Assembly (NCBI GenBank): GCA_009702305.1
Contig: WLIH01000095.1
Coordinates: forward strand, 1 to 8,083
Origin: Actinomycetota bacterium
GTDB lineage: Bacteria; Actinomycetota; Actinomycetes; Propionibacteriales; Nocardioidaceae
Length of the DNA: 8,083 nt
Direction of reading: 5' to 3'
The notes under the pieces were generated by a model. That model did not search any database, had not been told where the DNA came from, and worked only from the letters and a program-made list of their open reading frames with translations. Made by a program: the position numbers and the translations under genes. This document shows positions 2-7,891 of the stretch, piece after piece; position 1 is the first letter of the stretch, and every line of letters begins with the position of its first letter.

Positions 2-1267
2 ACGGGAGTCTTCACCGACAACGCCCCCACCGACTGGGACGAGCCCGGTCTCATCCTCTCCAAGGAGAAGGGCGCGGCCTACGTCATCATCGACGAGGGC
101 GACGACCCGGAGGTCCGTCCGGTCATCAACATCACCTCGGCCCAGCTCATCCTCGGCTCCGACAACCTGACCCCCCGGATCGTCTCGCAGGACGTGATCG
201 ACGAGCAGCCCCTCGGCGATGACATCGGCATCCTCAACGCGCCGGCCGTGCTGCCGGACACCTCGGGCCTGATCGGCAGCGGCTGGACCGCCTGCACCGG
301 CACCGGGTTCGGCCTCAAGGCCGACGTGTCGAGCACTCCGCTCGTCCAGACGTCGGGCGACCTCGCCAACCCCGTCGGCTTCACCGTGGTCACCCAGGAC
401 GCCGAGGGCAAGAAGGAGTATTGGGTGATCGCCGAAGCGCCGGCGACGCTCGACCGTCCGGTCCAGGCGTTCCGCTACCTGCTCACGCAGGAGGCCGGTC
501 TGGCCGACGGCCTGCTCGACGCGGTCAACCTGCCCACGATCGGCGAGGCGAGCGAGGTGCCGCCGGAGTGGGTGGCGCTCTTCCCCCGCGGCGGCGACCT
601 CGACCTGACCAGCTTCGACCTGCCCGACGTCGGTGCCAGTGCGCCCGGCCTCGACGGTGCCAAGGTCGGTCAGTACCTCCCCGACGGCGCCGGGGGCGGC
701 TACGCGCTCAGTGCCGACGGCCCGGTGCCGCTCGATCCGTTCGCGTACGCCGTCTACACGCACGCCCGCTTCCCCGACGGTCGCAAGCCGCGCCCCGCCG
801 ACCTCGCCGACGTCCCCGACGTCCAGCGGGCGGTCGGGGTCTACGACGCCGCGGCGTGGCCGACGCAGGCGCTGTCGGCGGTGGCCGGTCAGCAGTGTGC
901 GCTCCTCGAGGCGACCGCCGGGGAGACGCCGCGGGCGCGGCTGGCCCTCGACCCGACCGGGGACGCCTCGGCCGAGGGTCTCGATGCGGCGACGGAGCGC
1001 GAGGCCTCGGTCGAGCGCGGCCATGCGGCGTACGTCATGAGCGGTGACTGGAGCGACGTCGCAGGCGACTCGGTCTGGGCCGTCGACGCCAAGGGTCGAG
1101 CCAACGCCCTCGTCGGACCGGACACCGCCGCCCAGCTCGGCTGGGAGAGCGTGCGGCCCACGCTGGTGCCCGACAGCTGGATCAAGCTCTTCGGCGAGGG
1201 TGTCGCCCTCTCGCGCGAGGCTGCGCTGTGCCCGCCGAGCCGGGTGACCGATCCCGAGTGCTCCTGA
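2..1267 (+). CDS. eccB: Type VII secretion protein EccB, C-terminal 421 residues (5' truncated by window edge)
   Basis: EccB is a core membrane-complex subunit of type VII (ESX) secretion. It has one N-terminal transmembrane helix and a large periplasmic/extracytoplasmic domain of repeats; the cytoplasmic N-terminus and helix lie left of this window. The open frame runs from base 2 to the TGA at 1265-1267. Visible family features are the STPLVQTSG and YWVIAEAPATLD-type repeat strands. There are also two cysteines, in WTACTGTGF (fragment residue 98) and GQQCALLE (residue 299), about 200 residues apart, matching the spacing of the conserved EccB disulfide. The closing repeat is WAVDAKGRANALVG, followed by LGWES and a P-x-LVPDSWIKLF stretch typical of the EccB end. 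Two extra cysteines sit in the last 14 residues (ALCPPS and ECS). The stop overlaps the mycosin ATG by one base, so the two are probably translated together. Family assignment is confident; the substrates of this system cannot be told from here. Confidence 0.93.
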   Translation, partial: TGVFTDNAPTDWDEPGLILSKEKGAAYVIIDEGDDPEVRPVINITSAQLILGSDNLTPRIVSQDVIDEQPLGDDIGILNAPAVLPDTSGLIGSGWTACTGTGFGLKADVSSTPLVQTSGDLANPVGFTVVTQDAEGKKEYWVIAEAPATLDRPVQAFRYLLTQEAGLADGLLDAVNLPTIGEASEVPPEWVALFPRGGDLDLTSFDLPDVGASAPGLDGAKVGQYLPDGAGGGYALSADGPVPLDPFAYAVYTHARFPDGRKPRPADLADVPDVQRAVGVYDAAAWPTQALSAVAGQQCALLEATAGETPRARLALDPTGDASAEGLDAATEREASVERGHAAYVMSGDWSDVAGDSVWAVDAKGRANALVGPDTAAQLGWESVRPTLVPDSWIKLFGEGVALSREAALCPPSRVTDPECS

Positions 1268-2529
1268 TGCGCGCACTGTCCGGGTCGGCCGCAGCGGTGC
1301 TGCTCGCGGGCCTGCTCGTCCTGCCGGGTGCGCCGGCGTACGCCGCCGACGTGGCCTGCGCCGACCTCGGTGCCGACGACCCGCGACCGCCGACGCCGGA
1401 GGCGGTGAGCGCTCCGCTGCAGGCGCTCGGTGTCCCGGCCGCCCAGGCCTACCTGCGCTCCCAGGGCGTCGAGCCCGGCGCCGGGGTCACGGTGGCGGTG
1501 CTCGACTCGGGGGTCGTCCGGGACGGGTCGGTGCCGCTCGCGAGCGGTCTGCAGGCGCCCAGCTTCGGCAAGGCCCGCGAGCTGGTCTCCTACCAGGGCA
1601 GCGCCGTCGCGGGGCTGATCGCCGCACCCGAGACCGACGAGGGCGACCCGGTCGGCATCGCGCCGGCTGCGCGCATCGTCGACGTCCGGGTCTACGACGC
1701 GCTCGTGCCGGCCGACGACGGGACCGAGGTCGGGGTGAGCGCGTCCCGGGTGGCCCAAGGGCTCGCGTGGGTGCTCGACCGGGCGTCGTCCATCGACGTG
1801 GTGAATGTGTCGCTCCAGGTCGAGTCCACGCCTGAGATCACCGACCTCGTCGAGCGGCTGTGGCGCAAGGGCGTGATCGTGGTCGCCCAGTCAGGGGATC
1901 GCCCGAGCCAGGTCGTGGAGGGCTCGACCAGCCCCTTCGACGCCTATGTCGGCGAGCCGCGGCCGGGCGAGGACGTCGTCGACGTGGTCTTCCCTGCGGG
2001 CTACCAGCGCCAGGTCGTCGCGGTGAGCGCGACCGCCGGTGGGGCCGACCTCAGCGGCATCGTGATGCGCAACAGCGCCGTCGACGTCGCGGCGCCGACG
2101 GCCGGGGCGCTGTCGGTCGCCCTCAACGGCGCGGTGTGCGTGCTGCCGGAGACCAGCACGTCGCTCGCCGCGGCCGAGGTGTCCGGTGTCGTGGCGATGC
2201 TGATCTCGGCCTACCCCGACGACACGCCGCAGCAGACGTTGGACCGGCTCGTCAACACGGCCGCCGGCCGTCCCGACGTGCGCTCACCGCTGCTGGGCGC
2301 CGGGGTGGTGCAGGCCGACCAGGCCGTCTCGCGCATCCTCGAGCCGTCGGTCGACGGCCAGCTCGGCCAGACGCAGGTGCTGCCCGACGTGGAGCGCGCG
2401 GTCGCGCCGGAGCCCGAGCCGGACGTGCTCGCGGGCACCCGTCACGACGCCGTGTGGTGGGGACTGCTCGGAGGAGGGGCGCTGCTGCTCGCCCTGGTGC
2501 TGAGACCGGTCCTGTCGCGCCGTCGCTGA
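1267..2529 (+). CDS. mycP: Mycosin-like type VII secretion subtilase (MycP family), probable pseudoprotease
   Basis: This is a 420-residue S8-family protein of the mycosin type, which sits beside EccB in the T7SS membrane complex. In order: a signal peptide (residues 1-26, likely cut after AYA), a subtilase domain (about 55-355), a Pro/Glu-rich linker, one C-terminal transmembrane helix (about 397-414) and a short LSRRR tail. The catalytic Asp is visible in VAVLDSGV (D80) and the nucleophile Ser in TSTSLAAAEVSG (S299). The His motif, normally HGT, reads QGS in SYQGSAVAGLI (Q110, codon 1594-1596). The only histidine in the whole protein is H393, beside the membrane anchor. The oxyanion-hole segment reads VVAQSGD rather than the AAGN form usual in subtilases. 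The frame is intact, so this looks like a maintained but catalytically dead protein. ATG 1267 is chosen because it starts directly at the signal peptide and overlaps the eccB stop; GTG 1228 and GTG 1258 are in-frame alternatives. No strong ribosome site is visible, which fits translational coupling. Family is confident; inactivity is inferred. Confidence 0.9.
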   Translation: MRALSGSAAAVLLAGLLVLPGAPAYAADVACADLGADDPRPPTPEAVSAPLQALGVPAAQAYLRSQGVEPGAGVTVAVLDSGVVRDGSVPLASGLQAPSFGKARELVSYQGSAVAGLIAAPETDEGDPVGIAPAARIVDVRVYDALVPADDGTEVGVSASRVAQGLAWVLDRASSIDVVNVSLQVESTPEITDLVERLWRKGVIVVAQSGDRPSQVVEGSTSPFDAYVGEPRPGEDVVDVVFPAGYQRQVVAVSATAGGADLSGIVMRNSAVDVAAPTAGALSVALNGAVCVLPETSTSLAAAEVSGVVAMLISAYPDDTPQQTLDRLVNTAAGRPDVRSPLLGAGVVQADQAVSRILEPSVDGQLGQTQVLPDVERAVAPEPEPDVLAGTRHDAVWWGLLGGGALLLALVLRPVLSRRR

Positions 2530-2611: not shown

Positions 2612-3898
2612 ATGACGTACCGCCCCGAGACCCTGACCGTCCACGCAGGTCAGGAGGAGGCCGACCCGACCACCAACGCGAGGGCCGTGCCGATCTACCA
2701 GACCACGTCGTACGTCTTCAACGACACCGAGCACGCGGCCAACCTCTTCTCGCTCGCCGAGCCCGGCAACATCTACACGCGGATCATGAACCCGACGCAG
2801 TCGGTCTTCGAGGAGCGGATGACCCAGCTCGAGGGCGGGGTGGGGGCGCTGGCCACGGCCTCCGGCTCGGCAGCCACGACGTACGCCGTGCTCAACGTCG
2901 CCGGCGCCGGCGACAACATCGTCGCGCTCTCGACGCTCTACGGCGGCACCTACGCGCTCTTCGCCCACACGCTGCCGCAGTTCGGCATCACGGTGCGGTT
3001 CGTCGACCCGGAGAAGCCGGAGGACCTGGCAGCGGCGGTCGACGACCGGACCCGGCTGGTGTTCGCCGAGACGGTGGGCAACCCCAAGATCAACGTCGTC
3101 GACATCCGGGCCTGGGCCGATGCCGCGCACGCCCAGGGGCTCCCGCTGATCGTGGACAACACGGCACCGACGCCCTACCTCGCCCGGGTCTTCGACCACG
3201 GCGCCGACGTCGCGGTGCACTCGGCGACCAAGTACATCGGCGGGCACGGCACCTCCATCGGCGGCGTCATCGTCGACTCCGGCAACTTCGACTGGTCGGC
3301 CCACGCCGCACGGTTCCCGGGGCTCACCGGCCCGGATGCCGCCTACCACGGCGTGGTGTGGACCGAGGCCGTCGGCAACCTCGCCTACATCATCCGGGCG
3401 CGAACGGTGCTCCTGCGCAACACGGGCGCCGCGATCACGCCGATGAACTCCTGGCTCTTCCTGCAGGGACTCGAGACGTTGCACCTGCGGATGGAGCGCC
3501 ACAGCGCGAACGCGCTGCGTGTCGCGGAGTACCTCGCCGGGCACTCGGAGGTCTCATGGGTCAGCTACCCCGGTCTCGCCGACAGCCCCTACAAGGCGGT
3601 GGCCGACCGGGTGCTCACCGGTCGGGGGTACGGCGGTCTTCTGAGCTTCGGTGTGAAGTCGGGTCGCGAGGGCGGCACGAAGTTCATCGAGGCGCTCGAG
3701 CTCTTCTCCCACCTGGCCAACATCGGCGACGCGAAGTCGCTGGCGATCCACAACGCCACCACCACCCACTCCCAGCTCACGCCCGACGAGCTCGCGGCGG
3801 CAGGCGTGCCCGAGGACATGGTGCGACTCTCGATCGGCATCGAGCACGTCGAGGACCTGATCGCCGACCTGGAGCAGGCGCTGGCCGCCAGCAAGTGA
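2612..3898 (+). CDS. metY: O-acetylhomoserine sulfhydrylase (O-acetylhomoserine aminocarboxypropyltransferase)
   Basis: This is a 428-residue cytoplasmic PLP enzyme of the Cys/Met metabolism family. It joins O-acetylhomoserine and sulfide to give homocysteine, the direct-sulfhydrylation step of methionine synthesis. The N-terminus ([10 protein letters not shown], then [12 protein letters not shown]) is typical of Met[10 protein letters not shown] (about 54-62) carries the Tyr and Arg that bind the PLP phosphate of the neighbouring subunit. ATASGSAA (81-88) is the cofactor loop, VDNT (181-184) holds the Asp that pairs with the pyridine nitrogen, and [10 protein letters not shown] holds the Schiff-base lysine (K207). 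The length and the [19 protein letters not shown] segment fit MetY better than the shorter MetB/MetZ proteins. The stop overlaps the metX start by four bases, and the product of MetX is its substrate, so the pair forms an operon. Everything looks intact. A low chance remains that it also uses other O-acyl homoserines. Confidence 0.96.
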
Positions 3899-5013
3899 CG
3901 GCCGAGCAGACGACGGCCACGCACGTGAGCCATGCCTCCTCGACCGCCCAGCGGGTCGTCCTGTCGTCGCCGGGCGACCCGCTGGTGCTCGAGCACGGCG
4001 CCCGGCTGGACCGGGTCGAGGTCGCCTACGAGACCTGGGGGGAGCTCTCGCCGGCGCGCGACAACGCCGTCTTCGTCTGCCACGCACTGACCGGCGATGC
4101 CCACGCCGCCGGCGACGGCGGGTGGTGGGAGAGCCTGATCGGGCCGGGGCGTCCGGTCGACACCGATCGGTACTTCGTGGTGTGCCCCAACCTGCTCGGC
4201 GGCTGCCGCGGGACGACCGGTCCGTCGTCGACCGACCCGGCGACGGGACGGCCGTGGGGACTGGACTTCCCGCTCGTGACGATGTCCGATCTGGTCGCCG
4301 TGCACCGGCGGCTGCTCGACCACCTCGGGCTGACCAGGCTGCACGCCGCGGTCGGCGGCTCGCTCGGCGGCATGCAGGTGCTGCAGTGGGCGATCGACGA
4401 TCCGACCGCGCTCTCCCGCGCCGTCGTCGTGGCGGGGTCGTCGCAGCTGTCGGCACAGAACATCGCCTTCTCGGCGGTGGCGCGCGACGCGATCGTGCGT
4501 GATCCCGACTTCCTGGGCGGGGCCTACGTCGGCACCGGGCGCCGTCCGGACCGCGGCCTGGCCGTCGCCCGCCGGATGGCGCACATCACCTACGTCTCGG
4601 CGGAGTCGCTCGAGGCGAAGTTCGGACGCGACCGGCTCGCCGCCGGCCCGCCGCGCCACGGCACCGACTTCCAGGTCGAGGCCTACCTCGACCACCAGGG
4701 AGAGGTGTTCGTCGAGCGTTTCGACGCGTTGTCCTACCTCTACCTCACCCGGGTGATGGACTACTTCGACCCGTTCGCCGACCCTGCGGCGGCGCGCCGT
4801 GCCGGCTCGGCGGGCACCCGCTTCCTCGTGGTGTCGTTCGACTCCGACTGGCGCTTCCCGACCTCGCAGTCGCGGCGGATCCACGAACATCTGTCGGCCG
4901 CCGGCGCGGCGAGCCGGCACGTCGAGATCGCGTCGCCGTGGGGGCACGACTCGTTCCTGCTGCGACCGCCCGGCTACCACGAGCTGGTGGCCGAGCACCT
5001 GGATGCGCCCTAG
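3895..5013 (+). CDS. metX: Homoserine O-acetyltransferase
   Basis: This is a 372-residue alpha/beta-hydrolase-fold enzyme that acetylates L-homoserine with acetyl-CoA, the first committed step of methionine synthesis. VFVCHALTGDAH (59-70) is the strand/loop that helps form the oxyanion hole. NLLGGCRGTTGPSS (99-112) is a MetX signature. VGGSLGGMQVLQWAI (153-167) is the nucleophile elbow with S156. SFDSDWRFP (314-322) carries the catalytic Asp (D318) and PWGHDSFLL (348-356) the catalytic His (H351). The triad is complete and the length is usual. GTG 3895 is chosen as start because it overlaps the metY stop as GTGA, a common coupling arrangement; GTG 3925 in the same frame is the alternative, and the first 20 or so residues are not conserved. 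Succinyl rather than acetyl specificity cannot be fully excluded by eye, but the MetY partner and the likely phylum favour acetyl. It ends in the CTAG shared with the convergent GH3 gene. Confidence 0.95.
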   Translation: MTAEQTTATHVSHASSTAQRVVLSSPGDPLVLEHGARLDRVEVAYETWGELSPARDNAVFVCHALTGDAHAAGDGGWWESLIGPGRPVDTDRYFVVCPNLLGGCRGTTGPSSTDPATGRPWGLDFPLVTMSDLVAVHRRLLDHLGLTRLHAAVGGSLGGMQVLQWAIDDPTALSRAVVVAGSSQLSAQNIAFSAVARDAIVRDPDFLGGAYVGTGRRPDRGLAVARRMAHITYVSAESLEAKFGRDRLAAGPPRHGTDFQVEAYLDHQGEVFVERFDALSYLYLTRVMDYFDPFADPAAARRAGSAGTRFLVVSFDSDWRFPTSQSRRIHEHLSAAGAASRHVEIASPWGHDSFLLRPPGYHELVAEHLDAP

Positions 5014-7405: not shown

Positions 7406-7891
7406 CTAGGTGGCCGCGGCCGCCGAGCCGCTCTCCGATGCTCGGCGGGCAATCAGTCCGAGACCGATCAGCACGGCGACATCGTCCGGGACGGCACTGT
7501 CAGCAACGTGGACGACCCCGCTCGTCCGGAGCACGCCGCCGAGCGTCAGACGGACGGCCTCAGTGCCGTGGGCATCGACCCAGGAGAATCGACGTGAGAG
7601 CACCCCGCTGATCCTGAGGCGATAGCGCCGGCCGTCGATGGCGGCGTAGCCCCTCCCGAGGATGCCTGTCTGGTGAAATTCGCCGATCGTGGTGCCGTCG
7701 GCGGCGCGGGCGCGCACTGCGCGTCCGAGGAGCCCCAGTGTCGTGAAGTCGATCCGTTGGTTACCCAGGTCCAGGTGGGCTGAACGCTTGAGCAGGCCTG
7801 CGAAGGCGACCTTGCCTTCGGTCCCTGCCGCCTCGCTGAGGATCAGCGACGAGTTGATGAGGGCTGGCTGGGTCACGGTGATGGTGCGCAT
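7406..7891 (-). CDS. Small protein of unknown function, possibly LURP-one/tubby-like fold
   Basis: This is a 161-residue protein that I do not recognise by sequence. It has no signal peptide and no clear membrane anchor. Short beta-strand-like segments alternate with Gly turns: HLDLGNQRIDFT, GLLGRAVRARAADG, TIGEFHQTG, GYAAIDGRRYRLRIS, RRFSWVDAHGTEAVRL. They are followed by a single hydrophobic helix-like segment, DDVAVLIGLGLIARR (136-150), and a low-complexity Ser/Ala tail. Strands with an ID-G-RRYRL and F-x-WVDAxG pattern plus one buried C-terminal helix resemble the LURP-one/tubby C-terminal barrel, a fold guess only. The gene looks real: ATG 7891 has GAGAGG nine bases upstream (7901-7906), and the frame is open to TAG 7406-7408. 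Its codon third positions are less GC-extreme than those of the met and GH3 genes. It may be co-transcribed with the partial gene 39 bases upstream. Confidence 0.7.
   Translation of the reverse strand: MRTITVTQPALINSSLILSEAAGTEGKVAFAGLLKRSAHLDLGNQRIDFTTLGLLGRAVRARAADGTTIGEFHQTGILGRGYAAIDGRRYRLRISGVLSRRFSWVDAHGTEAVRLTLGGVLRTSGVVHVADSAVPDDVAVLIGLGLIARRASESGSAAAAT

Follow-up and report, generated by a model that had tools for sequence, protein, structure and literature searches.

The window, by which we mean the whole stretch of DNA analysed here, is a complete contig of 8083 bases (G000:C474) from a Nocardioides assembly of 2.9 Mb that is 75.6% complete. Its first gene encodes the C-terminal 421 residues of EccB (2..1267; this feature and those of the mycosin below lie on the + strand) and is truncated at its 5' end by the contig edge. 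The EccB fragment scores 111.2 bits against PF05108 (gathering score 27) and 99.9 bits against TIGR03919, which is below that model's cut-off of 154. The eccB stop codon, TGA (1265-1267), overlaps at base 1267 with the ATG (1267-1269) of a gene for a 420-residue mycosin homologue with a predicted dead active site (1267..2529). This overlap ties the mycosin gene to eccB as part of a type VII locus. Downstream of the mycosin gene, an O-acetylhomoserine sulfhydrylase gene and metX occupy positions 2612-5013, where relatives carry dnaX in 79 of 122 loci. A GH3 glycosidase gene lies further downstream on the opposite strand, and a 161-residue open reading frame (7406-7891, - strand) is without a Pfam match.

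The mycosin homologue combines a subtilase fold with a signal peptide and a C-terminal membrane helix. The signal peptide (residues 1-26; 1267..1344) was assigned by eye from the sequence, and its residues A24 and A26 are conserved across both the intact and the dead mycosins described below. The membrane helix, taken from the structural model, spans residues 389-418 (2431..2520) and includes a WWG motif (397-399) whose first residue, W397, is 100% conserved in both sets. The only two Cys of the protein, Cys31 (1357..1359) and Cys291 (2137..2139), are likewise each 100% conserved in intact and dead mycosins and likely form a disulfide pair. The protein matches Peptidase_S8 (PF00082) at 61.4 bits, against a gathering score of 21.8, and TIGR03921 (type VII secretion-associated serine protease) at 136.8 bits, below the NCBIfam equivalog cut-off of 278.75. 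Intact Nocardioides mycosins seem to fall below the TIGR03921 cut-off as well: the best E value among those of G085, G063 and G131 is 3e-52, and a match scoring 277.8 bits, with an E value of 3.5e-82, already fails it.

Catalytic residues of the window mycosin

The original prediction held that this mycosin has Gln in place of its catalytic His, that the catalytic Asp and Ser are kept, and that H393 is its only His. Codon reading and alignment bear this out. Asp80 is encoded by GAC (1504..1506) and Ser299 by TCG (2161..2163), with Ser299 lying within helix 298-315 of the model. The codon CAG (1594..1596) places Gln110, the first residue of helix 110-119 in the model, at the position of the catalytic His. 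When the window protein was aligned with 120 listed homologues, the corresponding column held His in 113 of the 121 rows and Gln in the other eight. A second change was absent from the original prediction: Asp211 (1897..1899) stands where the oxyanion-hole Asn is expected, in a column that holds Asn in 104 and Asp in 17 of the same 121 rows, which again comprise the 120 listed homologues and the window protein.

Close orthologues do not all carry His at this position. P0001, a 433-residue protein from a separate sequence source (a contig of 2128 bases), is 99% identical to the window mycosin, with four differences over 420 aligned residues, and shares both Gln110 and Asp211. We therefore reject the possibility that codon 110 was misread or misassembled. 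The nearest relatives after P0001 share about 50% identity, and most of them carry His at position 110. The window protein has a single His in its 420 residues, H393, at the beginning of the membrane helix; in P0001 it is replaced by Arg, leaving no His over the 420 aligned residues. Because residue 393 is the first His of the window mycosin, an alternative active-site His is ruled out.

In place of the Asp-His-Ser triad that characterizes TIGR03921 mycosins, the window protein thus has Asp80, Gln110 and Ser299, with Asp211 at the oxyanion site, and we therefore file it as a protease-dead mycosin homologue rather than as a mycosin protease. The triad of the sedolisins (serine-carboxyl peptidases) has Glu in the place of His, and this was rejected since position 110 is Gln. 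From these residues we predict, with high confidence, that the Gln110/Asp211 protein has lost protease activity. Asp211 alone may not abolish activity, given that Ser299 and Asp80 are kept and that six genomes with an intact triad also have Asp at the oxyanion site.

Predicted dead mycosins across Nocardioides

A profile search of 215 Nocardioides genomes, in which the best eight candidates per genome were scored and on which absences rest, gave a mycosin match in 166, 157 of them with a single match. We classed 149 full-length Nocardioides mycosins, the window's included. Five genomes were dropped before this set was fixed: G050, which belongs to another family, G031 and G204, whose mycosins are cut by contig ends, and G190 and G116, in which the match is split over two frames. 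A further 13 of the 166 were left unclassed (G061, G105, G113, G114, G119, G126, G147, G175, G209, G217, G218, G224 and G230). The match in G224 is a 780-residue frame apart from eccB and may be no mycosin.

The triad is intact in 103 of the 149 mycosins and lacks at least one residue in 46, or about one third, which we call dead; 26 of these have lost one residue, ten have lost two and ten all three. At the His site, His is found in 127 mycosins, Gln in 12, Thr in four, Leu and Arg in two each, and Ser and Glu in one each. At the Ser site, 105 mycosins keep Ser, 24 have Ala, eight have His and 12 have other residues; across the genus, this Ser is replaced by Ala, His, Glu, Val, Asp, Ile, Gly or Thr. 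The oxyanion site of the 46 dead mycosins is Asp in 43 and Glu, Gln and Asn in one each; among the 103 with an intact triad it is Asp in six and Trp in three. The latter form a class (DHWS; G001, G011 and G015) that pairs an intact triad with Trp at the oxyanion site. In another class (DHDH; G073, G035, G002, G155, G173, G143, G033 and G181), the catalytic Ser is changed to His and the oxyanion Asn to Asp, and the resulting two Asp and two His might share one pocket as a metal site. The natural pseudo-mycosin coupled to eccB that was originally proposed is therefore a recurrent state in Nocardioides rather than the oddity of one strain. We found no report of natural dead mycosins in the open-licence literature.

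To count changes between the intact and the lost state, we used three trees. A mycosin tree of 151 rows, with the active-site columns excluded, requires nine such changes, five of them forced by supported branches, and a FastTree phylogeny of 167 mycosin rows requires ten, nine of them forced. A tree of EccB, which uses no mycosin sequence, also requires nine when rows without a mycosin are omitted. The counts by themselves are silent on direction; that outgroups are intact favours loss. In the EccB tree, the clade that holds the window (nine rows, support 99) has Asp211 throughout, while its His site varies: it is Arg, Gln, His (three rows) or Thr (four rows). This pattern suggests, from sequence comparison, that the oxyanion change likely came first and that His was lost separately later. 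Only the EccB tree supports the clade in which these steps are seen; in the mycosin trees, the one small supported set to include the window protein is its pair with P0001. Joint loss was also tested with independent pairs, of which too few were supported for significance.

Secretion machinery, selection and coupling to EccD

EccB, EccC and EccD are each present in all 46 dead-mycosin genomes (tables read by eye). These counts, and the absences given below, rest on the best five EccC candidates and the best seven each for EccB and EccD that were scored per genome. The EccC of the window's own genome carries three Walker A motifs, as does that of all 19 dead-mycosin loci that were read, out of 46. 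Eighteen of these 19 loci have the gene order eccC, eccD, esx, eccB, mycP; in the nineteenth (G117), mycP and the remaining genes are at opposite ends of a one-contig record, with mycP at its start. In the window's own genome, the genes for EccC, EccD and a WXG100 protein are all on contig C27, which probably adjoins the window contig (C474) in the genome, since relatives carry eccC, eccD, esx, eccB and mycP as one locus. A few partner genes gave irregular matches. The EccD match runs over one stop in G151, G077, G207 and G162 and is in two pieces in G161, with one open frame spanning it in G151, G077 and G207; the EccC of G139 is weaker, with two matches. A decayed secretion system is not seen in the EccC, EccB or EccD of the dead-mycosin genomes.

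The dead mycosins themselves appear to be under purifying selection. Their median dN/dS is 0.30 (13 pairs) against 0.28 for intact mycosins (30 pairs), by the Nei-Gojobori method on pairs 70-97% identical with each genome used once; the window mycosin had no DNA partner close enough to be included. Intact mycosins show conservation of at least 90% in 54 columns, and 41 of these columns, both Cys and W397 among them, stay conserved to at least 85% in the dead set. Only four columns fall below 60%, namely 211, 299, 110 and 77, the last a residue near the Asp. The fall at columns 110 and 299 follows in part from how the sets were defined; that at 211 does not.

The original prediction left two possibilities: either this secretion system needs no mycosin cleavage, or a second, active mycosin lies elsewhere in the genome. 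The former is favoured. We found no second mycosin among the 45 of 45 scored candidates of the window's own genome, which is 75.6% complete. Nor was one found in the 45 other dead-mycosin genomes, for each of which up to 39 candidates were scored, except for an equally scoring copy in G163. Forty-three of these 45 genomes have a completeness of 90% or more and a contamination of 5% or less. In the 45 genomes, the next matches reach at most 59.5 bits, compared with 275-519 bits for the mycosins.

If a dead mycosin serves to hold the complex together, its presence would be expected to track the partners it binds. Across the 215 genomes, 162 have both a mycosin and EccD, 44 have neither, five have EccD only and four a mycosin only (sets compared by hand), a co-occurrence with a Fisher p of 2e-35 when kinship is ignored. 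In one of the five EccD-only genomes (G211) the mycosin is cut by contig ends. G125 and G149 have EccB, EccC and EccD, and no mycosin was found in them among the scored candidates; given these two, a clamp is not needed everywhere. The coupling to EccD, taken together with indifference to catalysis, is the pattern that a clamp predicts.

Loci without a mycosin add detail. Four of them (L336 in G145, L337 in G149, L339 in G018 and L342 in G189) keep eccC, esx and eccB. In these four genomes dnaX lies 463-655 bp past eccB, with a tRNA-Ser(gga) at or between them; in mycosin-bearing loci the distance from eccB to dnaX is 1.6-5.3 kb (measured in the 79 of 122 loci whose sequence extends to dnaX). 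Six mycosin-less loci (L336, L338, L339, L340, L342 and L345) also lack eccD between eccC and esx, and thus hold a reduced EccB/EccC/Esx set. In G145, G188, G018, G229, G189 and G224, EccD was found neither at the locus nor, among the best seven candidates, genome-wide at E 1e-15. In the EccB tree, both G145 and G149 fall within dead-mycosin clades (supports 98 and 99). Of the nine mycosin-less rows in that tree, six group with intact relatives and two with dead ones; the placement of G018, on a long branch, is uncertain.

A probable protease-dead clamp, its rivals and known systems

We consider it quite probable, on the strength of sequence comparisons, that the window mycosin is a natural protease-dead mycosin that likely acts only as a membrane-anchored clamp tying together EccB and EccD of its type VII secretion system. 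With Gln110 and Asp211, the protein is predicted to cut nothing. It would be placed like MycP5, with its protease domain on EccB and its membrane helix on EccD. The loss of cutting may have been possible as a simple EccB/C/D/MycP system would have no substrate that needs it, and in the window's clade it would have proceeded by the oxyanion change and then by separate losses of His. As for the scaffold-only version proposed originally, we infer it from the coupling of mycosin with EccD, from the apparent purifying selection and from mutants already published in mycobacteria. In Mycobacterium marinum, the engineered variants S354A and N239Y of MycP1 and S461A of MycP5 still secrete, and the complex is unstable without mycosin (PMC5082899; see also the commentary on these mutants and complex stability, PMC5156307). 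N239 of MycP1 coordinates the oxyanion hole, so that Asp211 and the engineered N239Y affect the same function. In ESX-5, the protease domain of MycP5 is reported to contact EccB5 and its membrane helix EccD5 (PMC8131196).

Dead mycosins could instead mark a stage before gene loss, in type VII systems under weak selection. The loci without mycosin, with their short eccB-dnaX distances, and the nesting of G145 and G149 inside dead clades would fit such decay. We nevertheless judge it unlikely: the reading frames of dead mycosins stay open, both Cys and the membrane helix are retained, dN/dS is similar to that of intact mycosins, the genomes with dead mycosins all keep EccB, EccC and EccD, mycosin-less rows sit mostly with intact relatives, and six of the mycosin-less loci have no EccD either. 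A very unlikely account is that another protease does the cutting, either an active mycosin encoded in the quarter of the genome that is missing from the assembly or a different secreted subtilase. The own genome does have two further subtilase genes (on C90 and C18), and a secreted subtilase of about 510 residues also occurs in genomes of the dead DHDA/DHDH clade; by eye, the D, H, N and S motifs are intact in the two that were read. Those two, however, lack a C-terminal membrane anchor (also by eye) and lie away from the type VII locus, each mycosin is described as acting within its own ESX system (PMC5082899), and the searches of the other dead-mycosin genomes speak against a second mycosin.

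It is more improbable still that the window protein remains a protease, working through the altered set Asp80, Gln110, Asp211 and Ser299 or through an acid-shifted mechanism. Ser299 and Asp80 are intact, and there is precedent in subtilisin-like enzymes with a Ser-Glu-Asp triad (PMC11593635), but residue 110 is Gln rather than Glu, no His is found within the 420 aligned residues of the near relative P0001, and the varied replacement of the Ser site across the genus makes activity look dispensable in its kin. We return, then, to the clamp as the preferred reading. A stronger version of it would have Nocardioides mycosins turned repeatedly from proteases into pure structural caps in an ordered way, by the oxyanion change from Asn to Asp followed by loss of His or Ser, with the loss of cutting itself favoured as it releases secretion. 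Such a benefit would be expected from the hypersecretion of protease-dead MycP1, and we regard this version as possible but rather doubtful.

The engineered MycP1 and MycP5 mutants resemble the Nocardioides proteins in a lost catalytic or oxyanion residue and in their Ecc partnership. They differ in that the Nocardioides loss is natural and recurrent, and that in the window it is the His and the oxyanion Asn that are replaced while Ser is kept. With MycP5 of ESX-5 (PMC8131196) the window mycosin shares the order of signal peptide, N-terminal extension, subtilase domain and single membrane helix, and both systems have EccB, EccC and EccD; in contrast to MycP5, its chain of 420 residues has no room for the 121-residue loop 5 and its active site is not intact. 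The MycP5 Trp that is buried against EccB5, which appears to correspond to the ALTW Trp of MycP3 and MycP1, is not Trp in Nocardioides, whether intact or dead. The ESX-4 type cluster (EccB, EccC, EccD, MycP and WXG; PMC4791881) has the same core set, which in the window's own genome is split between C27 and C474 and in relatives forms one locus; the difference is that the window mycosin is predicted to be protease-dead. The YukC/EssB pseudokinase of type VIIb systems (PMC9600267) is likewise a dead enzyme fold kept in a type VII system, albeit one of unrelated fold and from Firmicutes.

Why secretion needs a mycosin but not its protease activity has so far been answered only with engineered mycobacterial mutants, and nature appears to have repeated the test. 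The repeated natural loss of catalytic residues in one genus is new and separates clamp from protease in evolution. The reading predicts that mycosin presence follows EccD and not any substrate. It also implies that the annotation of mycosin genes as serine proteases is often doubtful, and that Nocardioides with dead mycosins would allow protease-free systems to be studied as they occur naturally, in environmental bacteria.

Mycosins of other genera of the class provide a baseline. Among 30 top loci outside Nocardioides, a sample biased to good scores, one (L232) could not be aligned and the other 29 mycosins are fully intact. Twenty lower-scoring loci outside the genus gave 18 DHNS rows from 17 loci, one DHPD row, one that could not be aligned and one locus without a match; just three of the 20 have eccB beside the gene, and many may not be type VII mycosins. 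The DHPD row (L247 in G341, from another family) is a membrane-anchored subtilase with Asp-His-Pro-Asp, and is a possible dead mycosin outside Nocardioides.
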